Positions 3,479 to 15,184 of a stretch of DNA of 16,118 nt are shown here, in pieces. Source of the stretch: Magnetococcales bacterium (lineage in GTDB: Bacteria; Pseudomonadota; Magnetococcia; Magnetococcales; DC0425bin3); NCBI GenBank assembly GCA_015229045.1, contig JADGCJ010000009.1, forward strand, positions 50,108 to 66,225. Reading direction: 5' to 3'. Numbering within the stretch: the stretch's first letter is position 1; the number at the start of each line of letters is the position of its first letter. The translations under genes and the position numbers were made by a program. The notes under the pieces are model-generated. The model saw only the letters and a list, made by a program, of their open reading frames with translations. It did not search any database and was not told where the DNA came from.

Positions 3479-4693
3479 TCATGTCGTTTGGCTTGCCAGG
3501 GAGTTTCTGTGCACCTCGTTTTCCAAATCCTGGAGGAGACGTATCATCTCTCCGGACAGTGAATTCAGTCTGTCCAGAAGATTGAACAGTCGATGATCAA
3601 ATTTGTCGACTGTGACGCTTCTGAGCAGGTCACGTCCTGTCTTGTGCAGGTCCTCGTGGTGTTTTTCAATCTCTTGGTATGCCTTGTAGTTTGCATAATC
3701 TTTTCCATCGCTGTAATACCACTTGCCCAGGTTGCATTCGGTATGGTCGCCGAGCATCTCCTTGAACTCCGCATCGTCTTCGATACCTTCGGGAATATCG
3801 TTGCTGCGCAGATGGTAGAAGAGCTCCATCATGTCCTTGCGCCACTGGATATGATCCACCTGGGCCTGATAAACCAGTCCTATGGGTTTCCCTTCCCATC
3901 TTTTGCCTGATTCGACCAGGTCGATGAAGGCGTTCAGTGGAAGAGGCCGTGACATGTAGAAACCCTGCCCCTGGTGACAGCCACTGTAAAGCAATTTCTT
4001 ATAGGTGCATAAATCTTCAACACCTTCTGCCACAACACGCATGCCGAGTCTCTGCGCCATCCTGATATTGGAGCTGACAATCTTGTTGCCCTTGCCTGTG
4101 GTGACCTTGTTGTCGACACACATATGGCTCACCAGGCTCTTGTCCAGCTTGAGCGATGAAAATGGAAAAGTGGAGAGGACTTCGAGAGAGGAGTACCCCG
4201 TTCCAAAATCATCAAGCGAGAGTTTGATGCCCAGTTCGTGCAGATCGTGCATGGTTTGAATCGACTGCAACGACATATCAACCAATGTTGTTTCGGTCAT
4301 TTCAAATATTATCTTTTTATCGTCAAATCTTCCCGATGCAAAAATACTTTCAACCTGATCGCGGAAGCTTGGAATTTTCAAATCATGGCTGGAAATATTG
4401 AAAGAGAAACTCAGACCGGAAAAAGATCGCCGATCAATTGTAATATCTGCCATGAATTTTGGAAGCATTTTCTCAGTTATAACAGTAATATATCCCGTCT
4501 CTTCCGCCAACGGTATAAAATCATTCGGTTGGATGAATACCGACTCCTTCTTCCACCGGATCAAAGATTCAGCACCGATAATCCTGCCGGTCATGAATGA
4601 GATTTTTGGTTGATAGTAGAATATAAACTCATCATTCTCGAGACCGTTTTTTATATCGTGCAGCATGAGACCACTCGCGCCATGACGACTCAT
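3479..4693 (-). CDS. EAL-domain c-di-GMP phosphodiesterase with C-terminal CZB zinc-binding domain
   Basis: This 404-residue cytoplasmic protein has an EAL domain at about 12-265 and a CZB domain at about 278-352, with no membrane segment. The signature EAL triplet reads ESL (Glu42), but the catalytic and metal residues are present: Asn99 in FNISS, Glu131/Glu134 in FEMTET, Asp161-Asp162 in LDDFGTGYSS, Lys182, Glu223 in VVAEGVED and Gln243 in GCHQGQGFY. It should therefore hydrolyse c-di-GMP to pGpG. The CZB motif fits HxxW (His281), CxLGxW (Cys320) and HxxxH (His346/His350), though the stretch between the first two is longer than usual. CZB domains bind zinc and are redox or zinc sensors in chemoreceptors and in the cyclase DgcZ, so zinc or oxidant control of activity is inferred. 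The ATG at 4693 is preceded by AAAAGG. Confidence 0.9.
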   Translation of the reverse strand: MSRHGASGLMLHDIKNGLENDEFIFYYQPKISFMTGRIIGAESLIRWKKESVFIQPNDFIPLAEETGYITVITEKMLPKFMADITIDRRSFSGLSFSFNISSHDLKIPSFRDQVESIFASGRFDDKKIIFEMTETTLVDMSLQSIQTMHDLHELGIKLSLDDFGTGYSSLEVLSTFPFSSLKLDKSLVSHMCVDNKVTTGKGNKIVSSNIRMAQRLGMRVVAEGVEDLCTYKKLLYSGCHQGQGFYMSRPLPLNAFIDLVESGKRWEGKPIGLVYQAQVDHIQWRKDMMELFYHLRSNDIPEGIEDDAEFKEMLGDHTECNLGKWYYSDGKDYANYKAYQEIEKHHEDLHKTGRDLLRSVTVDKFDHRLFNLLDRLNSLSGEMIRLLQDLENEVHRNSLASQTT

Positions 4694-5111: not shown

Positions 5112-6128
5112 TCAATAGCAGGTACCGCCGGCCTCCTGGAGAAGCATTTCCACCTCTTCGTGATGTTTTTCCAGGGCCATCAGGCGGGAGGTGACACCTT
5201 TGTTGTCGCGTTCGTTGACCCGCGCCCCTTTGGCCAATAAAAACTTGACGATTTCCGCATGTCCGTTGGCCGAGGCAAACATCAGGGCATTCAAACCATC
5301 TTCGTTTTTGACATGGACATCCGATCCATGCTCCACCAACATTTTAACGATCTCCGTATGGCCTTTTTCGGATGCAATCAGAAGCGCTGTGCAACCGCAT
5401 TGGTGGTTGCGTTCGATGCTGGCTTTTTTCTCTATCAGCAGGTGGGCAGCCTGGATATCACCATATTGGGCAGCCAACATGAGGGGAGTGTTGCCCTCCT
5501 TGTCCTGGGCGTTGATGTCCGCTCCGGCAGCGATCAGGGCAGGCAACAACTGCGCATTGCCATACTGGATCGCCAGATGCACGGCTGTACGCAACTTTTG
5601 GTTCGTCGCCTTGACATTGGCCCCCTTGGCAAGCAATTTCTCCAGTATCTTCAGGCGAGTGGCCTGCTCAGACGGATCCTTCAACCGCACGGCGACTATT
5701 TTCAACAACGGGGTCCAGAACCCCTTGGTCTGAAAATTGACATCCGCTCCGTGGTCGATCAGAGCGTCCACCAGCTCGGGGTGCATCCATTCGGCGGCCA
5801 GAAACAGGGCCGTACACCCAGCCCGCAGGTGCTGAGCGTTGACATCAACCCCTTTTTTCAAGAGCAGGTCGACGACTTCCGCATGGCCTTCCTGGGACGC
5901 CATCATGAGCAGTGACATGCCCACCTGGCTGTATTGATTGGGATCGGCCCCCTTGTTCAGAGCGTCCCGGACGGCTGCCCAATCCCCCTTGTAGGCGGCA
6001 TCCCAGACCTTGGATTCAGGTGCAGCGGCGGCACCTTGGGCAGCACCCGATTGTGCCCGGGCATCGGTCGCGACGAGACCACCGGCCAACAACAACGTCA
6101 TGCAGAACATGGCAACACTTTTTTTCAT
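5112..6128 (-). CDS. Exported ankyrin-repeat protein, last gene of the molybdoenzyme operon
   Basis: This 338-residue protein starts with a Sec signal peptide (MKKSVAMFCMTLLLAGGLVA, probable cleavage after ATDARA at about residue 25), then an Ala/Gly/Gln-rich linker, then about nine ankyrin repeats of about 33 residues to the C-terminus. Repeats carry the usual pattern, for example NTPLMLAAQYGD and LNALMFASANGHAEIVKFLL, with the fourth repeat expanded. The ATG at 6128 was preferred over an upstream in-frame ATG because AAAGGTGG precedes it and the signal peptide begins there. It starts 20 bases after the HybE-like gene and is likely in the same operon. Ankyrin repeats bind proteins. A periplasmic partner or protector of the exported catalytic subunit is an inference. 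Confidence 0.88.
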   Translation of the reverse strand: MKKSVAMFCMTLLLAGGLVATDARAQSGAAQGAAAAPESKVWDAAYKGDWAAVRDALNKGADPNQYSQVGMSLLMMASQEGHAEVVDLLLKKGVDVNAQHLRAGCTALFLAAEWMHPELVDALIDHGADVNFQTKGFWTPLLKIVAVRLKDPSEQATRLKILEKLLAKGANVKATNQKLRTAVHLAIQYGNAQLLPALIAAGADINAQDKEGNTPLMLAAQYGDIQAAHLLIEKKASIERNHQCGCTALLIASEKGHTEIVKMLVEHGSDVHVKNEDGLNALMFASANGHAEIVKFLLAKGARVNERDNKGVTSRLMALEKHHEEVEMLLQEAGGTCY

Positions 6129-6148
6129 GATGGACCACCTTTGATTTG

Positions 6149-6703
6149 TCACCCTTTTGCCAGACGAAAACTGCCAAAAATCTCCCGACGGGTCAAATCT
6201 TGTTGCCAGCGACACTCCATGGAGCGTTCCTTGCGGATGGTATCGCGAAACCGGACGACATCGGTCCAGGCGGCAAACACCTGGTCGCCGGTCTGGTAGC
6301 GCGACAAACCAACCACCAGGGGCTGAATATAAAAAAATCCGAGCTGCGGATCATATTGTGTATGGGCCTCCTGGGTCTGTCCCAGAATGGTCAAGCTGGT
6401 TCTCGGACCCAAGGTGGGCAGAGAAACCCTCTCCCGACCATCCGGAATGGCTGTCCGGGGCGTCTCCGGCACCAGAACCCGACACAGCATCCAAGGCGTC
6501 AATTGCAAAAACAGAGTCCACCCTTCAAGATGTCGGCAGGCCCTGGTTTCATGGCCAAGGGCCAGGTTGAGAAAATCTGCCTCCAGGCCGGGAAGAACCT
6601 GCTCCCGGCGCAACCCCTCCGTAGCCGCCTCGAAGAGTACACGAAACCTAGCATGGAATTCTACCTCACCCGGGTCACCAGGTTCCAGATCGATTGTTGA
6701 CAC
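6149..6703 (-). CDS. HybE-like assembly chaperone
   Basis: This is a 184-residue cytoplasmic protein whose centre resembles the HybE family of hydrogenase maturation chaperones: WTLFLQLTPWMLCRVLVP corresponds to the conserved TPWML segment of HybE, followed by a short loop and VSLPTLGPRTSLTILGQ, then FFYIQPL where HybE has a Ser-Pro-Leu-type motif. In Escherichia coli HybE binds the Tat signal of the hydrogenase-2 small subunit. Here no hydrogenase genes are visible and the neighbours encode a Tat-exported molybdoenzyme, so the protein likely serves that enzyme (inference). The GTG start at 6703 has GGGAGAGG just upstream and gives a 29-base overlap with the TorD-like gene. An ATG at 6748 would need a longer overlap. 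Confidence 0.68.
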   Translation of the reverse strand: MSTIDLEPGDPGEVEFHARFRVLFEAATEGLRREQVLPGLEADFLNLALGHETRACRHLEGWTLFLQLTPWMLCRVLVPETPRTAIPDGRERVSLPTLGPRTSLTILGQTQEAHTQYDPQLGFFYIQPLVVGLSRYQTGDQVFAAWTDVVRFRDTIRKERSMECRWQQDLTRREIFGSFRLAKG

Positions 6704-7220
6704 GCCCCTCTCCCGACAGATCCAAAAACCTCGCGCCCAGCGAACCATAAAGAATCAGGGATGAAGAGTCCCTGAGTCTGGCTGCAAATTGAGGAACCCA
6801 GACCAGCAAATGCTCCTGCCACAGCTCCTGTTCCACATCGGCCAACCGGCCATGCTGTAAACGCAGATGCACAGCCAGATCCAACAGGGAACCCAAAAAA
6901 TCCGGAGCGATGTCCGGGTCTGCCTCAACTCCCGCCCGCCTGTAGAGTCCGGCGATGGCCTGCACACAACTTCCCCCCAGAGATCCGTGCCGCCAGTAAC
7001 TCTCGAAAGGCGGACAGATCGTCTTGGGGATACCATTGACAAAAAGGCGGGTATGTTCGGCCTGCCACTCCTCCAACGGGGTTGTCCGCAGTTGTGGACA
7101 GGCCGCTTGCAGCCAGGGAAGCCCGGCGGCCATTTCGTCGACGGCTTCCAGCGAGTCCGGCCCGGGTTGCCCAAGCAACCCGGCCAGTAAAGTCAATTCA
7201 CGTTCCGATACCGCGTCCAT
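6675..7220 (-). CDS. TorD-family molybdoenzyme chaperone
   Basis: This 181-residue all-helical cytoplasmic protein belongs to the TorD/DmsD/NarJ group that binds the Tat signal of a molybdoenzyme and holds it for cofactor insertion before export. The family motif is visible as EHTRLFVNGIPKTICPPFESYW (about residues 53-74), equal to the usual EYxRLF...PPYES. The ATG at 7220 lies 10 bases after the NrfD-type gene. Its ribosome site is weak, so translation is probably coupled to the gene before it. The likely client is the catalytic subunit encoded at the head of this operon. Confidence 0.87.
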   Translation of the reverse strand: MDAVSERELTLLAGLLGQPGPDSLEAVDEMAAGLPWLQAACPQLRTTPLEEWQAEHTRLFVNGIPKTICPPFESYWRHGSLGGSCVQAIAGLYRRAGVEADPDIAPDFLGSLLDLAVHLRLQHGRLADVEQELWQEHLLVWVPQFAARLRDSSSLILYGSLGARFLDLSGEGRVNNRSGTW

Positions 7221-7230
7221 GGGGGCAAGT

Positions 7231-8187
7231 TTACCATGGATAGGCGTAAACACCAGCCGCCATAAAGTAGTGCCGCAGGAGATACCCTCCGGAAAGCACC
7301 AACACCGACGCCGTGACGATGGGCACCTTGCCCGCCCACTTGCCAAAGACACACTTCAGCTCCATGGCCAGGGGGATCATCAAGCCGCACACGACAAAGC
7401 CCATCACCCAGCCCGAGTCGTTCCACAGCAACTCCGCCGAACGATAACCGGATTCCGAACCGGAAAGGGTATAGTTGAAAAAGGAGAAGATGACCACCAG
7501 TTCGGCGGTAATCAAGCCAATGTCCACCCGCTCATACAGGGCGCGAATGGTATGGTCCACCCGATGGTAGATGAACATGTACATGACGATGAGCAACCAG
7601 GCCATCGAGGTGGAAAAGGCCGAAACCGTGAACAGGATCGGTACCCCCGGGTTGTGCCACAGGGCCACTGCCGGAAAACTTTGCAGGAGCAGACCCGTAT
7701 AGACAGCCGTGCCCAGACCCGTGACGATAGCGATCCAGCCCAGGATAGGCTGGAATTTTTGCGCCGTTTCGGCAACGTCGCGGGTGATTTTCATTTTCAG
7801 GAAAGCACCCATGACGGGCCAGTGCAGAAGGCGCGGCTTTTCCACCATGAATGGGAGGGCAAACAGCACCGCCGCGATCTGGAGCCAGAGAATGAACTGC
7901 GATCCCCAGGCAATCCAGGAGTCGGGTTTGTGAAAAATGCCCCAGGGGGTGAGGATGTAAATGGCTGCCCACTTGTGCAACAGATGCAGAAAGAGCAGGC
8001 CCGATCCAACGCCCAGCATGGCCGTGCCGGAAAGCGCCCCCCACATCACCAACTCTTTCTCTTCCCGCAAATACATGTGGGTGAGAAAACTGACCACAAT
8101 GACGGCAGCTCCCATGCCTCCCAGAAAGAGATACAACGCGAACCACCACGTCCACAGGTTTTGCGTGGTGTAGGTCATGATTTCCAT
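7231..8187 (-). CDS. NrfD/PsrC-type membrane subunit of a molybdoenzyme complex
   Basis: This 318-residue integral membrane protein has about eight hydrophobic helices, the NrfD/PsrC/TtrC fold that anchors a catalytic and a ferredoxin subunit and exchanges electrons with the quinone pool. Typical segments include ALYLFLGGMGAAVIVVSF near the N-terminus, and YTGLLLQSFPAVALWHNP with the downstream FTVSAFSTS, matching the PsrC core. No haem ligand pattern typical of NarI-type subunits is needed or seen. The ATG at 8187 follows the ferredoxin stop by 9 bases, and its ribosome site (AGGAGAG) overlaps that stop codon. The order catalytic-ferredoxin-membrane is standard for PsrABC-like complexes. Confidence 0.92.
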   Translation of the reverse strand: MEIMTYTTQNLWTWWFALYLFLGGMGAAVIVVSFLTHMYLREEKELVMWGALSGTAMLGVGSGLLFLHLLHKWAAIYILTPWGIFHKPDSWIAWGSQFILWLQIAAVLFALPFMVEKPRLLHWPVMGAFLKMKITRDVAETAQKFQPILGWIAIVTGLGTAVYTGLLLQSFPAVALWHNPGVPILFTVSAFSTSMAWLLIVMYMFIYHRVDHTIRALYERVDIGLITAELVVIFSFFNYTLSGSESGYRSAELLWNDSGWVMGFVVCGLMIPLAMELKCVFGKWAGKVPIVTASVLVLSGGYLLRHYFMAAGVYAYPW

Positions 8188-8196
8188 GCGGCTCTC

Positions 8197-8796
8197 CTAC
8201 CGTTGGGGAATGTAGTAGACATTGGGGCGCGTCCCCAGATGGGCCATCAGCGGCTTGGCCGTGCCGTTGCGCACCAGCTCGGTAACCGGATGGGTCGCGC
8301 TGTCGAGGTCGCCCACCATTCTGGCCTCCCCCGGACAGGTGCGTACACAGGCCGGCAACTCGCCCACCTTGAGTCGATGATGGCAAAAAGAGCACTTGTC
8401 CATGCTGGGAGCCTTGCGTTTCAATACCCCATAGTACTCCTTGCCGATTTTGATATCGGCGTGAGTGTAGGGGAAGCGCGCCTTGTAGGGACAGGCCAGG
8501 GCGCAAGCCCCGCACCCCATGCACAAGGCCTCCTCCACCAGGACCACCCCATCCGAGGTGCGATGGGTCGCCCCCGTGGGACAAACGGTCATGCAGGGAG
8601 GGTTTGAGCAGTGGTTGCACAAACGGGGAATGAAATGCCGACGTACCGAGTTGCCGGAGCCGACTTCCCGGTCATGAACATAGGTTCGCCATTGATCCGA
8701 CCAGACCGGGGTCTGGTTTTCCAGCGAACAGGCAGCCATGCAGGCGTTGCAGCCCACACAGGTGTTCATATCGATTACCATGACATAACGGGTCAC
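8197..8796 (-). CDS. Four-cluster ferredoxin subunit (PsrB/TtrB/DmsB type)
   Basis: This 199-residue electron-transfer subunit carries four [4Fe-4S] cysteine sets: CVGCNACMAAC (Cys13, 16, 19, 23), CNHCSNPPCMTVC, CMGCGACALAC, and CSFC with a later CVRTC. It passes electrons between the molybdenum subunit and the membrane quinone subunit. It has no signal peptide, consistent with export in a complex with the Tat-bearing subunit, as in related enzymes. The start is GTG at 8796, supported by AAGGAG 8 bases upstream. The gene lies 15 bases after the catalytic subunit gene. Confidence 0.95.
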   Translation of the reverse strand: MTRYVMVIDMNTCVGCNACMAACSLENQTPVWSDQWRTYVHDREVGSGNSVRRHFIPRLCNHCSNPPCMTVCPTGATHRTSDGVVLVEEALCMGCGACALACPYKARFPYTHADIKIGKEYYGVLKRKAPSMDKCSFCHHRLKVGELPACVRTCPGEARMVGDLDSATHPVTELVRNGTAKPLMAHLGTRPNVYYIPQR

Positions 8797-8811
8797 GATG
8801 CCACTCCTTTA

Positions 8812-11574
8812 TCAGATTTTTTGGATCCGCACGGTAAATTCCTGGGAACGGAATCCCGCAACGACAGGTTCAACCAGGTAGGGGATCAGTTTATTGGTGG
8901 CCGTGCCAATACCCACGCTGAGACGCAGAGCCTTGTTTTCGACACCGAATGAGGAGTGCAAAAAGATGGAATCCGGATGCAACTGGTTGGTCACATAGGC
9001 CGTCCCCTCGGCCTGCTGGCCAGAGAAGGTGTTGGTCATGAGGATGCGATCACCGGAGCCGATCTCCAGGGCATTGGCCCGATCGGGGTGGATCCATACC
9101 CCCGTGTAGATATCCTTCTTGAAACGGTTGATGGCCGCCAGCACCGGGTTGTTGCTGTTGGTGGAACCGTAGGAGATGGTCGGCGTCTTGCCGTAGGTGA
9201 AGTAAAACTCGTCCTTGTCCAGGGGTTGATCCATGGTCTTGCCCACCCGACAGGTCGCCGGTATGGATGCCGCCAGCACGTTGAAGGAGGAGCCCTTTCC
9301 ACCCATGCCATCCCGCAGCCACACAAAGAGCGTACCGTAGAACTCCAGACGACCGCTGGTCGTCGGCAAAGCCATTTGGCGGGGCATGGAGTGGTGCGCC
9401 AGAATCTCCTCGGCGGCAATCTCCAGGTGCACACCATGGCGTTTGAGGCTGTCACGCAGCTCGCGGGGAGTGGTATGAATCCTGGCGGCGGTCTGTTCAA
9501 AGGCGACATCACGACACGCCTTCGAGTAGGGACTCTTGGCCCCCAGAGCGCGATGTTTATCATAGGCGGCCATCGTGGCTTTGGCCGGAATGCCGCTCAA
9601 CGCCTCCAGGGTTTTGACAAACGGCTCTGTGGTTCCTGAAATGACCCTGCTCAGACCCAACAGGATATCCGGGGTTTCCAGCGTGTCGTACAAGGGATCG
9701 ATGGCACTGAAGCGGGTCGTCAGGGCCAGGTCGTGATTGACCCCGTTGCCATAGATGGTTGGCTCGTCCCGCTCCAGGTAGGTCGGGTTGGGCAGGATGA
9801 CATCGGCGTAGGGTACGGTGTCGGAAGGAAGCACATCCACCACCACCACCAGTTCCATGTTGGCATGGGTGAGGATGGTTTTCCACTGGGTGTCCGGATA
9901 GTAGTGGCGCACCGGATTGGCTGCGTTGATGACGATGGCCCGGGTCAGGTACGGTTCGCCATTGTAGATCAACTTGCCGGTGACCGATTCCAAAAGACCC
10001 GTGTCGGCCAGAGCCGGTACGGCCACGGCCTCGCGACCGGCGGCCCGTTCCTGGGCAGCGAAGGCGAAGGCCCAGGCCGGATGATTGTGCGGAAAGGTCT
10101 TCGGATTGGAGATGGCCTTGATCAGCTCGCTGACAAAGGGTATCCCGGCCAGAGTCGTCATGAGGGGTCCGGGCAGGGTGCGATTGGCCTTGTGCCAATT
10201 GGCCACCTTGTGGTGGTACTCGCCGCTCATGATCCAGCCACCCTTGCGGTCGATGCCTCCCACCAGGGCCTGCAACATCGCCTGTACACGACGCAGCATG
10301 TTGATGTTGGTATAGCGGGCGCCGTGCCAGCCCGGATCGACGATCGGACGTCCGGCCTGGGCGAAGTCCCGCGCCGTCTTGATGATGGTCGCCGACGAAA
10401 CGCCGGTGGTTTTGGCCGCCCATTGCGGCGTGTTGCTGGCAATTTCGGCCATCTGCGCCTGCAAAACCGTCAACACGGGACGCCCTTCCAGGATCAGGCC
10501 ATCCGGGGCAAACAGGGAGGGGTGAACCGGACCACCCTGAATATCCACCACATTCTGATGGCTGTACGGCGGGATGGAGACAATCTCCCCGGTGCGCTCC
10601 TGAATGACACGCGGATTGCCCTTCGCATCGGTGACAATGGCCCAGGCTCCATGCGCATCCCGGGTCAGCAGGAAGGGCATGTTGGTGTGTTTCTTCAGAA
10701 AATCCTCATCGTAGAGCTTTTCCGTCAGCATCACGTGCAGCATGGCCACCATGAAATCGAGGTCGGTGCCGGGGCGGATACGAATCCACTCATCGGCCTT
10801 GGCCGCCGTCTCGGAAAGACGCGAATCCAGGGCGACGACCCGGGTGCCCTTCTTGCGGCCCTCGGCAAAGCGCACCATGCGCGAGGTGGAAATGGCCCCG
10901 ATGGAGGCATTGTTGGCAACAAAAAGGATATAGTTGGCATTGTCGTAATCGGGCAGGACTTCGTCGTGAATATTGAAGTTCCCGGTCACCGAATCGGTCC
11001 CCAGATGCCCGGAGGCCACACAATGCTGCATCGGCGAGGCGACAATGTTGGGGATCCCGTTGGCCAGAGCAAAGGGGACAGCCCAATACATGTAAAAAAC
11101 ACAAGAAGTCCAGCCACCCACCATGGTCCACTCCCATGGCTGGATTTTCTTGGCCTTGGCCTTGGACTCGATGTAGGCCCAGGCTTCCTCCCAAGTGGCC
11201 GCGCGAAATTTGCCCTCTCCGCGCTCGCTTCCTTCCACCCGGATCATGGGACCCTTGATACGGTCCACTTCATAGACCTGGCGCATACCGGCTTGACCCC
11301 GGGCGCACATTTTACCCCGGTTCAAGGTAGAGTGGGGGTTGCCATCCAGTTTGACAATACGCTTGACCCCGTTTTCCGTCTCGGTGGTCACCTGGACATT
11401 ACACAACGATGAGCAAAAGTTACATATGCTGTAAACCTGCTCCCTGGTGACATCCTTGTCACTCTTGACCTCGCTGCCGACGAGGCCGGTCGGGGCCAAT
11501 AAAGACAACCCCGCAACTCCCCCACTGGATTGAAGAAATCTACGTCTGGTCAACTTTGGGAATCGCCAGGACAT
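8812..11574 (-). CDS. Molybdopterin oxidoreductase catalytic subunit with Tat signal
   Basis: This 920-residue DMSO-reductase-superfamily protein begins with a Tat signal (LTRRRFLQS at about 8-16, then a hydrophobic GLSLLAPTGLVG), so it acts in the periplasm. A [4Fe-4S] site is formed by Cys51, Cys54, Cys58 and Cys90, with Lys88 between cluster and pterin. Cys185 in SPMQHCVASGH is the probable molybdenum ligand, as in PsrA, TtrA, ArrA and Nap rather than serine enzymes. The C-terminal half has the second pterin-binding domain (LPNPTYLERDEPTIY and a final substrate-channel region). Length and partners suit a tetrathionate, polysulfide/thiosulfate or sulfite-type enzyme, but the substrate cannot be fixed from the sequence. 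The ATG at 11574 is chosen for GGAGAGGAG upstream and for the Tat motif. Confidence 0.93.
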   Translation of the reverse strand: MSWRFPKLTRRRFLQSSGGVAGLSLLAPTGLVGSEVKSDKDVTREQVYSICNFCSSLCNVQVTTETENGVKRIVKLDGNPHSTLNRGKMCARGQAGMRQVYEVDRIKGPMIRVEGSERGEGKFRAATWEEAWAYIESKAKAKKIQPWEWTMVGGWTSCVFYMYWAVPFALANGIPNIVASPMQHCVASGHLGTDSVTGNFNIHDEVLPDYDNANYILFVANNASIGAISTSRMVRFAEGRKKGTRVVALDSRLSETAAKADEWIRIRPGTDLDFMVAMLHVMLTEKLYDEDFLKKHTNMPFLLTRDAHGAWAIVTDAKGNPRVIQERTGEIVSIPPYSHQNVVDIQGGPVHPSLFAPDGLILEGRPVLTVLQAQMAEIASNTPQWAAKTTGVSSATIIKTARDFAQAGRPIVDPGWHGARYTNINMLRRVQAMLQALVGGIDRKGGWIMSGEYHHKVANWHKANRTLPGPLMTTLAGIPFVSELIKAISNPKTFPHNHPAWAFAFAAQERAAGREAVAVPALADTGLLESVTGKLIYNGEPYLTRAIVINAANPVRHYYPDTQWKTILTHANMELVVVVDVLPSDTVPYADVILPNPTYLERDEPTIYGNGVNHDLALTTRFSAIDPLYDTLETPDILLGLSRVISGTTEPFVKTLEALSGIPAKATMAAYDKHRALGAKSPYSKACRDVAFEQTAARIHTTPRELRDSLKRHGVHLEIAAEEILAHHSMPRQMALPTTSGRLEFYGTLFVWLRDGMGGKGSSFNVLAASIPATCRVGKTMDQPLDKDEFYFTYGKTPTISYGSTNSNNPVLAAINRFKKDIYTGVWIHPDRANALEIGSGDRILMTNTFSGQQAEGTAYVTNQLHPDSIFLHSSFGVENKALRLSVGIGTATNKLIPYLVEPVVAGFRSQEFTVRIQKI

Positions 11575-11678
11575 GTGTACTCCTCTCCGTTGTTCGATGG
11601 ACACATCCGCTACTGGAAACCCGCTCGCCGAACGACTATCATCCCCCGTCGCGGTGAGTCGGCCTTGCTGCCATAAGG

Positions 11679-11692
11679 GCAACAATCGTGCC
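11679..11692 (-). promoter_or_regulatory. Sigma-54 (-24/-12) promoter of the molybdoenzyme operon
   Basis: On the minus strand the sequence reads GGCACGATTGTTGC, matching the core TGGCACG-N4-TTGC consensus with GG and GC at the required spacing. Only the base before GG (A instead of T) and the last base (C instead of A/T) deviate. Transcription would start near 11668, about 94 bases before the catalytic subunit ATG. A sigma-54 activator is encoded divergently next to it. Confidence 0.75.
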
Positions 11693-11722
11693 TCTTCTCT
11701 AACCAATTGTGACAGGATATTA

Positions 11723-11735: not shown

Positions 11736-11813
11736 TTTTTCGCCTATTTTTTTACACAGACGTCACCGTCCTGAAAAATTGCTGGGCAACGCGCCAGGAT
11801 TCCTTGCCAAGAA

Positions 11814-11851
11814 TGACAAACATGGCACCCTCTGATTGTCACGGATGACAA
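11814..11851. promoter_or_regulatory. Candidate enhancer (activator-binding) sites
   Basis: TTGTCA-cgga-TGACAA at 11836-11851 is a perfect dyad. A further TGACAA half-site lies at 11814-11819. The group sits about 120-170 bases upstream of the -24/-12 promoter and upstream of the activator gene, where a sigma-54 enhancer would be expected and where it could also allow autoregulation. Confidence 0.45.
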
Positions 11852-11982
11852 GTTTGTGCAACAATGTCGCTCCTGATTGTACCGTGGAGGTCGCGCAGCG
11901 ATTCTCACGCTTGGGAGGGTGGAGGAAGATTTCCCCCATCCACGCATCGTCAGCCTCTTTCCCACCCGCCAAGGTTCCCTGT

Positions 11983-13407
11983 ATGACAGTCGCTCCGACC
12001 CATGCCATCCCCTCCATCGATGCAGCGGCCTTCCTGAGCATTCACGCCGTGCCAGCCATTCTCGTCGATCTGGAGTACCGGGTTCTGGCCTGCAATCAAC
12101 TCTACGAAGAGACCTATGGACCCATCGTCGCCATGGGAGAGATCCGTTGCTACGAAATATCCCACGCCTATACGAGACCGTGCGACCAGGAGGGTGAATC
12201 CTGTCCCTTGCATGCCTGTCTGGAAACCGGCCTGAGTCAACGTCTGCTGCACGTCCATCAGACATCGGAGGGAAAAGAGTATGTGGATGTGGAAATTCGT
12301 CCCATCCACGACCGGGATGGTCGGATCACCCATTATCTGGAAATTCTGACCCCAGTTCGCATCGCCTCCGCCGATCCGGCTCCGGTGGGGCTGGTTGGGT
12401 CATCGCCGACGTTTCAATACATGCTGCGCATGATCCAGCGGGTGGCGGCCAGCAAAGCCTCGGTCCTGCTGCTCGGCGAGTCGGGCACGGGCAAGGAGGT
12501 GGTGGCCAGGGCCATTCATCAAGCCAGTCCCAGGGCCAACATGCCCTTCGTCCCGGTCGAGTGTTCCGGATTGACCGAGAGTCTGTTTGAAAGCGAGTTG
12601 TTCGGTTACGAACGGGGTGCCTTCACCGGGGCACACTTGCGCAAAACCGGACTGGCGGAGGTGGCCCACCAGGGAACCCTGTTTCTGGACGAGATCGGTG
12701 ATATTCCCCTTTCGCTTCAGGTCAAACTGCTGCGCCTGCTGGAAACGAAGAGTTTTCGCCGGGTGGGTGGGGTCAATACCCATTATGCCAATTTTCGCCT
12801 GATCTGCGCGACCAATCGCGACTTGTCGGCCATGGTGGCACGGGGCGAATTTCGCCTGGACCTCTACTACCGCATTGGCGTTTTTCCCATTCACATGCCC
12901 CCTCTGCGGGAACGCCGCGACGATCTCCCCCTGCTTGTCCAATCACTCCTCGACCGCATGGAAGGCGGCCAGAAGATTCAACTGGCACCCGAGACCATGG
13001 CCTGGTTCATGAGCCATCCTTTCCCTGGCAACATTCGGGAGCTGATGAATATTCTGGATCGAGCCATTCTGATGATGGATGGCCCTGTCATGTTACCCGA
13101 ACATCTTCCCCATCCCATGTACCCCATCCCCTCCTCCACCCGGGAGAGACTCGCGACCTCTCCCGCCGTGACACCCTCCTCCCCCTGGCAGGCGGGTTTG
13201 ACATCGGACGAACCTGTCTCCTTTCGCTTGCAGCGTGTCCTGCCGCTGGATCATGTGGAGAGGCTTTATCTGAGCCAGGTCATGCGCCAGTTTGGAACCG
13301 ACAAGGCCTGGTTGGCGCAGGAGTTGGGAATCAGCCTGCGCACACTGTATCGCAAAATTGAGATCATGGAAGAGCACCAAAGCGAAATGACCGATCCGGA
13401 AACATGA
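11983..13407 (+). CDS. Sigma-54-dependent transcriptional activator (PAS-AAA+-HTH)
   Basis: This 474-residue protein has an N-terminal PAS-like domain (about 12-125), an AAA+ sigma-54 interaction domain (about 137-365) and a C-terminal Fis-type HTH ([17 protein letters not shown]). The ATPase is complete: Walker A GESGTGKE (165-172), the sigma-54 loop GAFTGA (212-217), Walker [10 protein letters not shown], and the arginine-finger region [21 protein letters not shown]. The PAS part carries four cysteines, Cys56, Cys67, Cys74 and Cys79 (the last three as [14 protein letters not shown]), a pattern seen in other PAS sensors and suggestive of redox or metal sensing. It has no receiver domain. The ATG at 11983 has AAGG 8 bases upstream; in-frame starts further left are possible. 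It probably activates the divergent operon. Confidence 0.92.
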
Positions 13408-13536: not shown

Positions 13537-13935
13537 ATGAAAAAATTGTTTTTGCTTGGTGTGTTGGGTCTGGGTCTCTCCTTTTCAGCTGCTGCCGTCT
13601 TTGCCGGTCCTGTGGCCGATTCTGTGAAGGCTGCCATGGGTGAAGCGCGCGAAAATCTCGTTGCCATGCTCGGCACTACCGACAAGGCCGCCCAGGCCAA
13701 ACATGAAGAGGCTGTCAAGGCCAGCACAGCCAAGGTGGATGAGATTATTGCCAAACACGCCGGTGCCTTCAAAGAGTTCGCTGCCATTTGGACAGAGTTC
13801 AAGGCAACCCGCGACGGGCAGATCATACCCAACGTCAAAGCAGGCAAGCTGGACGAAGCCAAAACCATATCGTCGACCGTTCAAGCCGAACGCATCAAGA
13901 AAATGGCTGGAATTCTGGGTACCATGGCCCAATAA
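13537..13935 (+). CDS. Secreted four-helix-bundle protein resembling a chemoreceptor ligand-binding domain
   Basis: This 132-residue protein has a clear Sec signal peptide (MKKLFLLGVLGLGLSFSAAA, cleavage after VFA at about residue 23). The mature 109 residues are helical, Ala/Lys-rich, with no cysteine. The last part (FKEFAAIWTEFKATRDGQIIPNVKAGKLDEAKTI, split by a short turn) resembles the 4HB_MCP sensory domain of methyl-accepting chemotaxis proteins, where a w..f...r....i.....g...A pattern is usual. Unlike those receptors there is no membrane anchor or signalling domain, so it would be a free periplasmic bundle. It could bind a ligand or partner; the function is not known. GGAGAA sits 8 bases before the ATG. 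It is followed by its own terminator and so is probably monocistronic. Confidence 0.8.
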   Translation: MKKLFLLGVLGLGLSFSAAAVFAGPVADSVKAAMGEARENLVAMLGTTDKAAQAKHEEAVKASTAKVDEIIAKHAGAFKEFAAIWTEFKATRDGQIIPNVKAGKLDEAKTISSTVQAERIKKMAGILGTMAQ

Positions 13936-14004: not shown

Positions 14005-14182
14005 TTCTCTGACAATCACCTTATTTTCATTGACAATTCCCCTGTTCTTATGGAATCTGCCATCCTGGAGGCTGGACTGAAAGACCACACTGTCGCGTCG
14101 TTCCCATGGTTTTGATCGTAACCAGATGGATCTTCGATGGAATGACCACGTAACCTGCGGGTCAATGGATGGGGAGTTCACT

Positions 14183-15184
14183 ATGTTCTGTGCAAAGTGC
14201 GGGGCAAAGTTGCCCGATGATTCGGAAACCTGTCCTCAGTGTGGTGAGCATGGCGCCTCGCCGCGTCCCAAGGCACCCCTGCCGGAAGGTGGTGACTCCC
14301 GGCCTGCCGCCAATCCCATCAGTTATGCCGGTTTTTGGGTTCGACTCTCCGCCACGTTCTACGATCAACTGGTCCTCATCATCCCTTCCATGATCGTCGG
14401 TGGTATTGTTGGTTATTTTTATATCCTGACAACTCACCAGGCCTCCGGTGTCGAGACTCTTGGTAATATTATCGGAGCCATCATCGGCTGGCTCTATGCA
14501 GCATTCATGGAAAGCTCCGCAAAACAGGCCACCCTCGGCAAGATGCTCCTTAAAATCAAAGTGACCGATTTGTCCGGCAATCCTGTCTCGTTTGGCAAGG
14601 CGTCGGGACGCTACTTTGGCAAAATCGTTTCATTGCTGACCTTGTGTATCGGATTTTTCATGGCCGGTTGGACCGAAAAAAAGCAGGGGTTGCATGACAA
14701 AATGGCGGGATGCCTGGTCGTCAATCGGCAAGATACCCAGGGACGCACGGTTTGGGTCGTCATCGCCTTACTGGCGACGCTCCTGATTCCAGTTTTGGGT
14801 ATAACGGCTGCCATATCCATTCCGGCCTATCTCAATATAACGGTTCGTTCCCAGGTCTCGGAGACCTTGTCAGACCTCCAGGCACATAAGCCGGTGCTGA
14901 CGGCATGGTACACGAGTCATGGTTACTGGCCCGACCAGGGAACGGATATACCCTCCATCGATCCCGGCAAATATGCCGCCACCATCGTGCTCAGCCAATC
15001 CGGTCCCTCCGCCACCACTCCCGACCTGATGGTGACCGCCACGTTCAAATCGGAGGGTGTTGCCCAGGGAATTGCAGGCAAGGGCGTTCGCCTGTCCACG
15101 ACGGATGGCGGCAAAACCTGGACTTGCGGTCCGGGAGTCTTTAATGGCGTGAATACGGAATATTTGCCGACAGAGTGCCGTTAA
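14183..15184 (+). CDS. Zinc ribbon-RDD-pilin-like fusion membrane protein
   Basis: This 333-residue protein has three parts. Residues 1-21 form a zinc ribbon (Cys3, Cys6, Cys17, Cys20: CAKCG...CPQCG). Residues about 45-185 are an RDD domain, with membrane helices around FYDQLVLIIPSMIVGGIVGY and the motif TLGKMLLKIKVTDLSGNPVS ending in KKQGLHDKMAGCLVV. Residues about 188-333 look like a type IV pilin without its leader: hydrophobic LLIPVLGITAAISIPAYL, then VRSQVSETL, and the C-terminal WTCGPG...EYLPTEC with Cys315 and Cys332 placed like the pilin disulfide loop. The pilin part would face the periplasm. No prepilin peptidase site is visible, so assembly into a pilus is doubtful. The ATG at 14183 is chosen for GGGGAG upstream. 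A TTGACA at 14030-14035 may belong to its promoter. The function is unknown. Confidence 0.85.
   Translation: MFCAKCGAKLPDDSETCPQCGEHGASPRPKAPLPEGGDSRPAANPISYAGFWVRLSATFYDQLVLIIPSMIVGGIVGYFYILTTHQASGVETLGNIIGAIIGWLYAAFMESSAKQATLGKMLLKIKVTDLSGNPVSFGKASGRYFGKIVSLLTLCIGFFMAGWTEKKQGLHDKMAGCLVVNRQDTQGRTVWVVIALLATLLIPVLGITAAISIPAYLNITVRSQVSETLSDLQAHKPVLTAWYTSHGYWPDQGTDIPSIDPGKYAATIVLSQSGPSATTPDLMVTATFKSEGVAQGIAGKGVRLSTTDGGKTWTCGPGVFNGVNTEYLPTECR

Follow-up and report, generated by a model that had tools for sequence, protein, structure and literature searches.

A HybE-partnered Psr-like molybdoenzyme operon of Magnetococcales and other mostly dsrA-bearing bacteria: a candidate sulfane-sulfur-induced polysulfide/sulfur oxidoreductase

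Introduction

The described systems closest to the locus reported here are the molybdoenzymes PsrABC and PhsABC, the SoeABC complex of sulfur oxidisers, the chaperone HybE of Escherichia coli and the regulator FisR of Cupriavidus. Papers are cited by PMC number. Psr, Phs and Sre enzymes are said to be indistinguishable by sequence, and it is not clear in which direction psr-like enzymes of sulfur oxidisers work (PMC8359478). PsrA-like matches have been noted in lineages that seem to be novel (PMC10100899). In Candidatus Thiosymbion oneisti psr/phs genes are reported to be upregulated under anoxic sulfidic conditions (PMC8269255). HybE is regarded as specific for hydrogenase-2, and some TorD/DmsD proteins are encoded in nrfD operons (PMC4464133). 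Here we describe an operon on a stretch of 16,118 nucleotides from a Magnetococcales bacterium (contig JADGCJ010000009.1, positions 50,108 to 66,225; the window), which encodes a Psr-like molybdoenzyme together with a TorD-type and a HybE-like protein. The conserved unit is a core of five genes, its catalytic subunit (MoA) forms a clade separate from the references used, and MoA has a strict partner in the HybE-like protein.

Organization and distribution of the operon

The operon of the window comprises the following genes.

8812..11574, minus strand: MoA, catalytic subunit with molybdenum-bis(pyranopterin guanine dinucleotide) (Mo-bisPGD), predicted to be exported by twin-arginine translocation (Tat), 920 residues (PF00384/PF04879/PF01568)
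8197..8796, minus strand: FeS, ferredoxin subunit with four [4Fe-4S] clusters, 199 residues (Fer4 domains)
7231..8187, minus strand: NrfD/PsrC-type membrane subunit, 318 residues (PF03916 NrfD, 88.5 bits)
6675..7220, minus strand: TorD/NarJ-type chaperone, 181 residues (PF02613, 72.3 bits), the next core gene in other genomes as well
about 6149..6703, minus strand, start codon inferred: HybE-family protein of about 184 residues with a C-terminal twin-arginine motif TRREIF (PF11939)
5112..6128, minus strand: ankyrin-repeat protein, 338 residues, probably exported (PF12796/PF00023; signal peptide by eye)

The initial annotation had described six genes on one strand with gaps of 20 bases or less or with overlaps, and this description agrees with the coordinates. 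The gaps are 15 bases between MoA and FeS, 9 between FeS and NrfD, 10 between NrfD and TorD and 20 between HybE and the ankyrin gene, whereas TorD and HybE overlap. Pfam bears out the type of each of the six products. The ferredoxin subunit contains 16 cysteines that can be read from the sequence as four clusters, and its nearest curated models are DsrO and TtrB, both below cut-off.

In the protein search for MoA 7998 candidates were scored, 823 had E ≤ 0.001 and the best 120 (59–89% identity) were listed; the closest among these matches (89 and 88%) both come from metagenome-assembled genomes of Magnetococcales. At E ≤ 1e-100 MoA is found in 15 of the 48 Magnetococcales genomes. A class sample around a Thiomargarita genome (G006; G and L numbers are our labels for genomes and for loci or tree rows) yielded a relative with 48–64% identity in 7 of 369 genomes, the next matches reaching at most 38%. 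Together with four further genomes (G004, G005, G009, G012) the order and the class sample provide 26 carrier genomes. The core MoA–FeS–NrfD–TorD–HybE is complete in 20 of them, namely 13 of 15 Magnetococcales and 7 of 11 others. One of the 13 complete Magnetococcales cores, that of G011, has a MoA truncated at the end of its contig. Among the six incomplete cores, those of G053, G005 and G261 run to a contig edge. The core of G007 is split over contigs, with NrfD–HybE–Ank seen twice (L015, L023) and TorD in one copy. In G006 a TorD–HybE pair lies on another contig away from MoA, and in G004 the contig stops 298 bases past TorD, a HybE match being found on a different contig. As the same gene order recurs in other genomes, the arrangement is not due to chance. 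Two carriers are Rhodospirillales assemblies of only 1.3–1.4 Mb; should these genomes really be small, retention of the operon would be in line with a valuable function. Cultured carriers, by their source names, include Sedimenticola hydrogenitrophicus and Thioalkalicoccus limnaeus.

The ankyrin gene behaves differently from the core. Of the 15 Magnetococcales carriers nine have a strong match and two (G046, G052) a shorter match of 39%; none was found in G001 and G048, and G050 and G053 could not be judged. At E ≤ 1e-3 it was not found in the seven complete loci outside Magnetococcales. Thus, of the six-gene order the part that recurs elsewhere is the five-gene core, and the ankyrin gene was seen solely in Magnetococcales. 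The initial annotation had grouped the last three genes as one unusual combination; this grouping is not supported, since TorD and HybE belong to the core. An apparent TorD–HybE fusion in L001 (347 residues) and in L008 (open reading frame, ORF, of 316 residues) was rejected, because the extra length is upstream sequence in the HybE frame and TorD is encoded there in another frame.

The HybE-like partner

The HybE-like protein of the window matches PF11939 with 31.5 bits (cut-off 25), and this model matches 18 of 20 relatives at E ≤ 0.01. For its predicted structure, with a predicted local distance difference test (pLDDT) score of 85, the sole PDB match at E ≤ 0.001 is E. coli HybE (2kc5). The match has E 5e-4 and probability 1.00, but a template modelling score of 0.45–0.50 and a root mean square deviation of 6.1.

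Co-occurrence with MoA was analysed with a profile of 60 relatives; matches with E ≤ 2e-35 were counted as strong, a limit set after the gap to the next match (3e-18) had been seen. Strong matches are present in 14 of 15 Magnetococcales genomes with MoA and in none of the 33 without it, and in the class sample in 6 of 7 against 0 of 362. Pooled, this amounts to 20/22 versus 0/395 (Fisher p 4e-32, uncorrected for kinship). The two genomes with MoA that lack a strong match (G053, G261) have weak matches, and their MoA contig is cut ahead of HybE. Among the genomes without MoA, six from Magnetococcales and 14 from the class sample do have weak HybE-like matches (3e-18 to 8e-6), which represent other or partial types of HybE.

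It could be argued that the HybE-like gene serves a hydrogenase or another Tat substrate and merely travels with the operon, given the hydrogenase-2 specificity described for HybE (PMC4464133) and the other contexts in which HybE-like genes are found. This is hard to reconcile with the absence of a strong match from all 395 genomes without MoA and with the TorD–HybE pair of G006, which has stayed together though detached from MoA. In addition, E. coli HybC, HybO and HybD were searched for in the window and in 31 MoA loci, which comprise 480 kb and represent some genomes twice. The search, confined to these loci and not genome-wide, found the control locus but nothing else at E ≤ 0.01. We therefore consider a mere traveller to be quite improbable. 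In the open literature, as judged by titles or abstract openings, no description of a HybE-linked molybdoenzyme was found.

The C-terminus carries a further feature. All 120 listed HybE-like proteins (of 223 found, window included) carry an [ST]RRE motif close to the C-terminus, the next residue being F, L, I, M or W. This motif is much like the Tat motif in MoA. In a wider alignment of 20 rows the two arginines are invariant and the flanks variable (SRRG, SRRD, TRRD, DRRA). The hydrogenase chaperone of E. coli ends with GRRALLFG plus nine residues; thus the twin arginine belongs to the wider HybE family and not to the subfamily alone. We suggest that this C-terminus may mimic a Tat signal peptide; the tail is of low confidence in the model (block pLDDT 62, 54, 48).

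HybE-like genes were also observed elsewhere. In several Magnetococcales a second HybE-like protein with the end SRR(G/Q)(L/M)F is encoded directly after a gene that by eye resembles thiG, which would place it in a thiazole context:

L168, 7255-7788: thiG-adjacent HybE-like protein
L169, 7588-8121: thiG-adjacent HybE-like protein
L170, 7787-8332: thiG-adjacent HybE-like protein
L171, about 7252-8217: thiG-adjacent HybE-like protein
L173, about 5688-6458: thiG-adjacent HybE-like protein

Others, ending with SRRDLFRGLLGRR (L166, 8044-8598; L167, end of 6554-8443), follow ORFs that by eye resemble RNase H, DnaQ and a membrane protein of 407 residues.

The catalytic subunit

An alignment of 38 homologues shows the Tat arginine pair R10/R11, the cysteines C51, C54, C58 and C90 and also C185 to be invariant, which bears out the Tat signal, the N-terminal cluster and the Cys185 noted initially. 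C185 aligns with a cysteine of PsrA (2vpw) which we take to be the molybdenum ligand. MoA has the Mo-bisPGD (MopB) fold, and the respiratory complex of Psr-like build suggested initially is supported. Its predicted model (pLDDT 78) has 2vpw PsrA as the top Foldseek match, almost tied with others; because many family members tie, the fold was dropped as a guide to the substrate.

All 24 NCBIfam matches of MoA are below cut-off, the best being PhsA with 309.5 of 694 bits; the ArrA model gave 92.8 of 1600 and the TtrA model 38.8 of 1750 bits. Two Psr-like reference rows, L096 (530 bits) and L099 (524 bits), likewise remain below the PhsA cut-off, which is hence strict. A tree was computed with a quick method from 59 rows: 36 of the 120 listed proteins picked for spread, eight locus proteins, the window and 14 references including Phs/Psr, Soe-like and TtrA proteins but not ArrA, SrrA, SreA and ArxA. 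The 45 MoA rows occupy one side of a branch with a support of 100 in the Shimodaira–Hasegawa-like approximate likelihood ratio test. Outside this clade are six Phs/Psr rows, four Soe-like rows, TtrA, DmsA and two other rows. MoA is thus clearly separate from the references within the rows used, and the reference comparison proposed initially has been realized in part, for the Phs/Psr, Soe-like and TtrA groups. The six Phs/Psr rows are not one clade themselves, as L098 stands apart from the other five, and DmsA joins beside the MoA clade (support 89). Both placements were flagged as possible long-branch effects, so the position of the MoA clade among the references is unsure. Two MoA genes were read with irregularities: in L044 (genome G261) there is an in-frame TAG, and in L007 MoA is split over two ORFs.

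On the basis of cut-offs and tree, identity of MoA with PhsA, TtrA or SoeA is rejected, and its own clade and the scores below every NCBIfam cut-off justify the term uncharacterised used in the initial annotation. The Soe-like rows (L100–L103) were labelled by their build (943–964 residues, no Tat signal) and not via a curated SoeA model. This lack of a Tat signal is not shared by MoA, in which both arginines are invariant in the 38 rows; for SoeA a location on the N-side, that is the cytoplasmic side, has been hypothesised (PMC8076601).

A thiosulfate or tetrathionate reductase, for which sulfane sulfur would merely be the signal (see below), appears unlikely to us. PhsA is indeed the top curated model, and a cytochrome of the octaheme tetrathionate-reductase family (over cut-off) is encoded downstream of the operon in L083 (3517-6177) and L085 (2425-5084), accompanied by a cytochrome b561. 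Against this stand the distance to the PhsA and TtrA cut-offs and the separate clade. As to the arrangement at these two loci, the octaheme cytochrome gene adjoins a gene for a fusion of cytochrome b561 with a response regulator.

The divergent activator and the promoter region

Upstream of MoA the window contains a divergent regulatory gene and candidate sites for its action.

11980..13407, plus strand, start inferred: FisR-like sigma-54 activator (PAS_4, AAA+ and Fis helix–turn–helix domains by Pfam) with the motif C-x10-C-x6-C
11678..11693, minus strand: sigma-54 -24/-12 site AGGCACG-N4-TTGCC, 103 bases ahead of the MoA start
11804..11819, strand not applicable: candidate proximal activator site, dyad TTGYCA-N4-TGRCAA (dyad scan)
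11836..11851, strand not applicable: candidate distal activator site, dyad TTGTCA-N4-TGACAA, 32 bases from the proximal dyad

The activator contains Sigma54_activat, PAS_4 and HTH_8 domains. Its ORF was first called as 11836-13407 (523 residues); the start is probably near 11980, as alignable sequence begins there. In the numbering of the 523-residue ORF the motif cysteines are C105, C116 and C123. The cysteine motif is present in all 15 operon-adjacent activators (window, 13 Magnetococcales, L004), against a background of 36 of 1328 ORFs of at least 200 residues across all loci, operon activators included. In FisR of Cupriavidus pinatubonensis sulfane sulfur leads to a tetrasulfide between Cys53 and Cys64 (PMC9495516). 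The first two cysteines of the activator have the same spacing of 11 residues. The third cysteine of FisR is presumably Cys71. Among plasmid and chromid records the best match is a protein of C. metallidurans (48% identity over 94%) with the same cysteine motif, divergent from genes for a persulfide-dioxygenase-like (390 of 625 bits) and a sulfide:quinone reductase (SQR)-like protein (182 of 525 bits), both under cut-off. The motif is also present in a Pseudoalteromonas homologue, whose gene diverges from those for cytochrome bd, and missing from a Shinella homologue (33%). Since FisR of Acinetobacter baumannii reportedly does not have the Cupriavidus cysteines (PMC7315123), the motif is not universal in proteins named FisR. 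By its domains and cysteine spacing the activator is FisR-like, and we suggest that it senses sulfane sulfur.

In the whole window the -24/-12-type pattern with one mismatch is found three times where 1.65 are expected. The weight therefore rests on the conserved place of the site: it also lies 101–114 bases ahead of MoA in L077, L078 and L093, and a -24/-12-like site is found in 14 of 14 activator-flanked Magnetococcales regions. Eight of these score 9 or 10 of 12 and L007 scores 8; the remaining five (L080, L082–L085) were missed by the strict scan and read by eye as TGGCA[CT]A-N4-TTG[AT]C. With the divergent Sigma54_activat protein and this conserved site, the sigma-54 control suggested initially is supported. 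At least one TTGTCA-N4-TGACAA-like dyad (at least 9 of 12) is present 201–282 bases upstream of MoA in the same 14 of 14 regions, window included, with a chance level of 0.17–0.42 per 700-base region in shuffles; this motif had been taken from the window before its occurrences were counted. L004 has a -24/-12 site scoring 11 of 12 and no dyad. Eight loci without activator were scanned: five have no dyad-like match, and L089, L009 and L012 match at 9 of 12. In the C. metallidurans and Pseudoalteromonas regions likeness to this dyad is weak and confined to half-sites, the best relaxed score being 10 of 12. Between 4600 and 12300 the sigma-70 scan is at chance (4 found, 3.1 expected), and the terminator scan gave 14 hits against 6.8 in shuffles (standard deviation 2.8), several of them inside operon genes.

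The FisR-like activator points to sulfane sulfur. The substrate had been called not identifiable; the activator, the TtrA and Soe-like rows outside the clade and the ArrA and TtrA scores far under cut-off now narrow the choice. A metalloid reductase acting on arsenate, selenate or selenite would be in keeping with the carrier genus Sedimenticola, which includes a selenate reducer. Such reactions are carried out in the wider Psr/Arr/Srr group (PMC10100899). Given the FisR-like control and the ArrA score (the tree being built without ArrA and SrrA), we regard a metalloid substrate as very unlikely.

Sulfur context and direction of the reaction

Outside Magnetococcales each of the eight close carriers has a dsrA match, which in G006 and G261 is a fragment under cut-off. 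Of the 15 Magnetococcales carriers 14 have a match, one of them a fragment, and G008 has none. No match was found in the three distant carriers. As dsrA is over cut-off also in 29 of 33 Magnetococcales non-carriers, it is useless as a discriminator inside this order. Within the class sample it discriminates modestly, all four close carriers having dsrA compared with 113 of 362 non-carriers (one-sided Fisher 0.010), a test in which the three distant carriers (0/3) were left out by a split made after the data had been seen.

By their source names the carriers include Kentrum, Thiomargarita, Sedimenticola, Sulfuricella and Sideroxydans, which are sulfur or iron oxidisers. In addition, FisR reportedly activates sulfide-oxidising genes in Cupriavidus, according to the title of a 2017 paper. 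Both points would suit a periplasmic sulfane-sulfur (polysulfide/persulfide) dehydrogenase that feeds the quinone pool alongside SQR and acts ahead of Dsr, and psr-like enzymes of sulfur oxidisers may well run in reverse (PMC8359478). On the contrary, the best curated match PhsA is a reductase, and HybE is succeeded by a regulator gene of the Crp/Fnr family in two Rhodospirillales assemblies (L009, L012; best curated model Fnr, 65.6 of 228 bits). We hold the oxidative direction to be the lesser possibility, though one to be taken seriously.

Proposed function

We lean towards a sulfane-sulfur-induced, periplasmic, quinone-linked polysulfide/sulfur oxidoreductase of its own clade, which is more likely a reductase. 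Build-up of persulfide or polysulfide would switch the FisR-like activator via its cysteine pair, and the activator would bind the paired dyads about 110–160 bases upstream of the -24/-12 site and give rise to sigma-54-dependent transcription. TorD would guard the Tat signal of MoA, and the HybE-like protein might be a second obligate maturation factor that controls cofactor or export readiness. The MoA–FeS unit would then be exported by the Tat pathway and dock onto NrfD. Electrons would most likely pass from quinol to polysulfide under oxygen limitation, with sulfane sulfur, either polysulfide or mobilised stored sulfur, as the substrate. The exported ankyrin protein would be an accessory of the lineage.

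More tentatively, and with clearly less assurance, one could generalize this to an unnamed, widespread respiratory molybdoenzyme of mostly dsrA-bearing sulfur bacteria which has stored or mobilised polysulfide as its substrate, for reduction (or oxidation), is controlled in Magnetococcales by a persulfide-sensing sigma-54 switch and depends on the obligate Tat-chaperone pair TorD and HybE, the C-terminus of HybE mimicking a twin-arginine motif and perhaps being a built-in placeholder for the signal peptide.

The HybE partner makes the MoA clade recognisable, where sequences of Psr, Phs and Sre alone do not discriminate. The FisR-like switch of Magnetococcales offers a direct test of the signal. 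Our results suggest that HybE chaperones serve enzymes other than hydrogenases as well and, as their C-terminal twin arginine is conserved, the question of Tat proofreading becomes testable.

Neighbouring genes

The neighbourhood of the window matches that of L077, from the PQ-loop/his region through the RDD gene. Two neighbours recur beside the operon.

3479..4693, minus strand: EAL phosphodiesterase with CZB domain (Pfam), also operon-adjacent in L077, L093 and L085
2654..2941, minus strand: protein of 95 residues, no Pfam match, recurring by the operon in L077, L078, L093, L008, L002, L082, L083 and L085

The single protein encoded at 14126-15184 joins a zinc ribbon with an RDD membrane domain and, at its C-terminus, a pilin domain. 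A small protein (13537-13935) begins with a signal-like stretch and matches, below threshold (24.0 of 27 bits), the four-helix-bundle sensory domain of methyl-accepting chemotaxis proteins.

Comparison with known systems

With PsrABC and PhsABC the enzyme shares a Tat-exported Cys-type Mo-bisPGD subunit, a four-cluster ferredoxin and a membrane subunit, and MoA has kept the N-terminal cluster of four cysteines and the cysteine at the molybdenum-ligand position. In contrast to these enzymes, MoA is about 155 residues longer than 2vpw (765), falls outside the Phs/Psr rows and under the PhsA cut-off and has a HybE-like partner. SoeABC is likewise a quinone-linked three-subunit complex of sulfur oxidisers, but the Soe-like rows start without a Tat signal and form a clade separate from MoA. 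The operons termed bisC-hybA-nrfD also have a TorD-type chaperone beside a molybdoenzyme, a ferredoxin and NrfD, whereas no HybE is reported for them in the excerpt of PMC4464133.

The regulator resembles Cupriavidus FisR in the cysteine spacing of 11 and the divergent gene order, and the C. metallidurans and Pseudoalteromonas homologues in the PAS_4/AAA+/Fis helix–turn–helix build; unlike FisR it is divergent from a molybdoenzyme operon and not from sqr/pdo. Finally, the HybE-like protein agrees with E. coli HybE, the hydrogenase-2 chaperone, in the Pfam family (PF11939), the 2kc5 fold and the C-terminal twin arginine, and differs from it in being the strict partner of a molybdoenzyme at loci without an E. 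coli HybC, HybO or HybD match.

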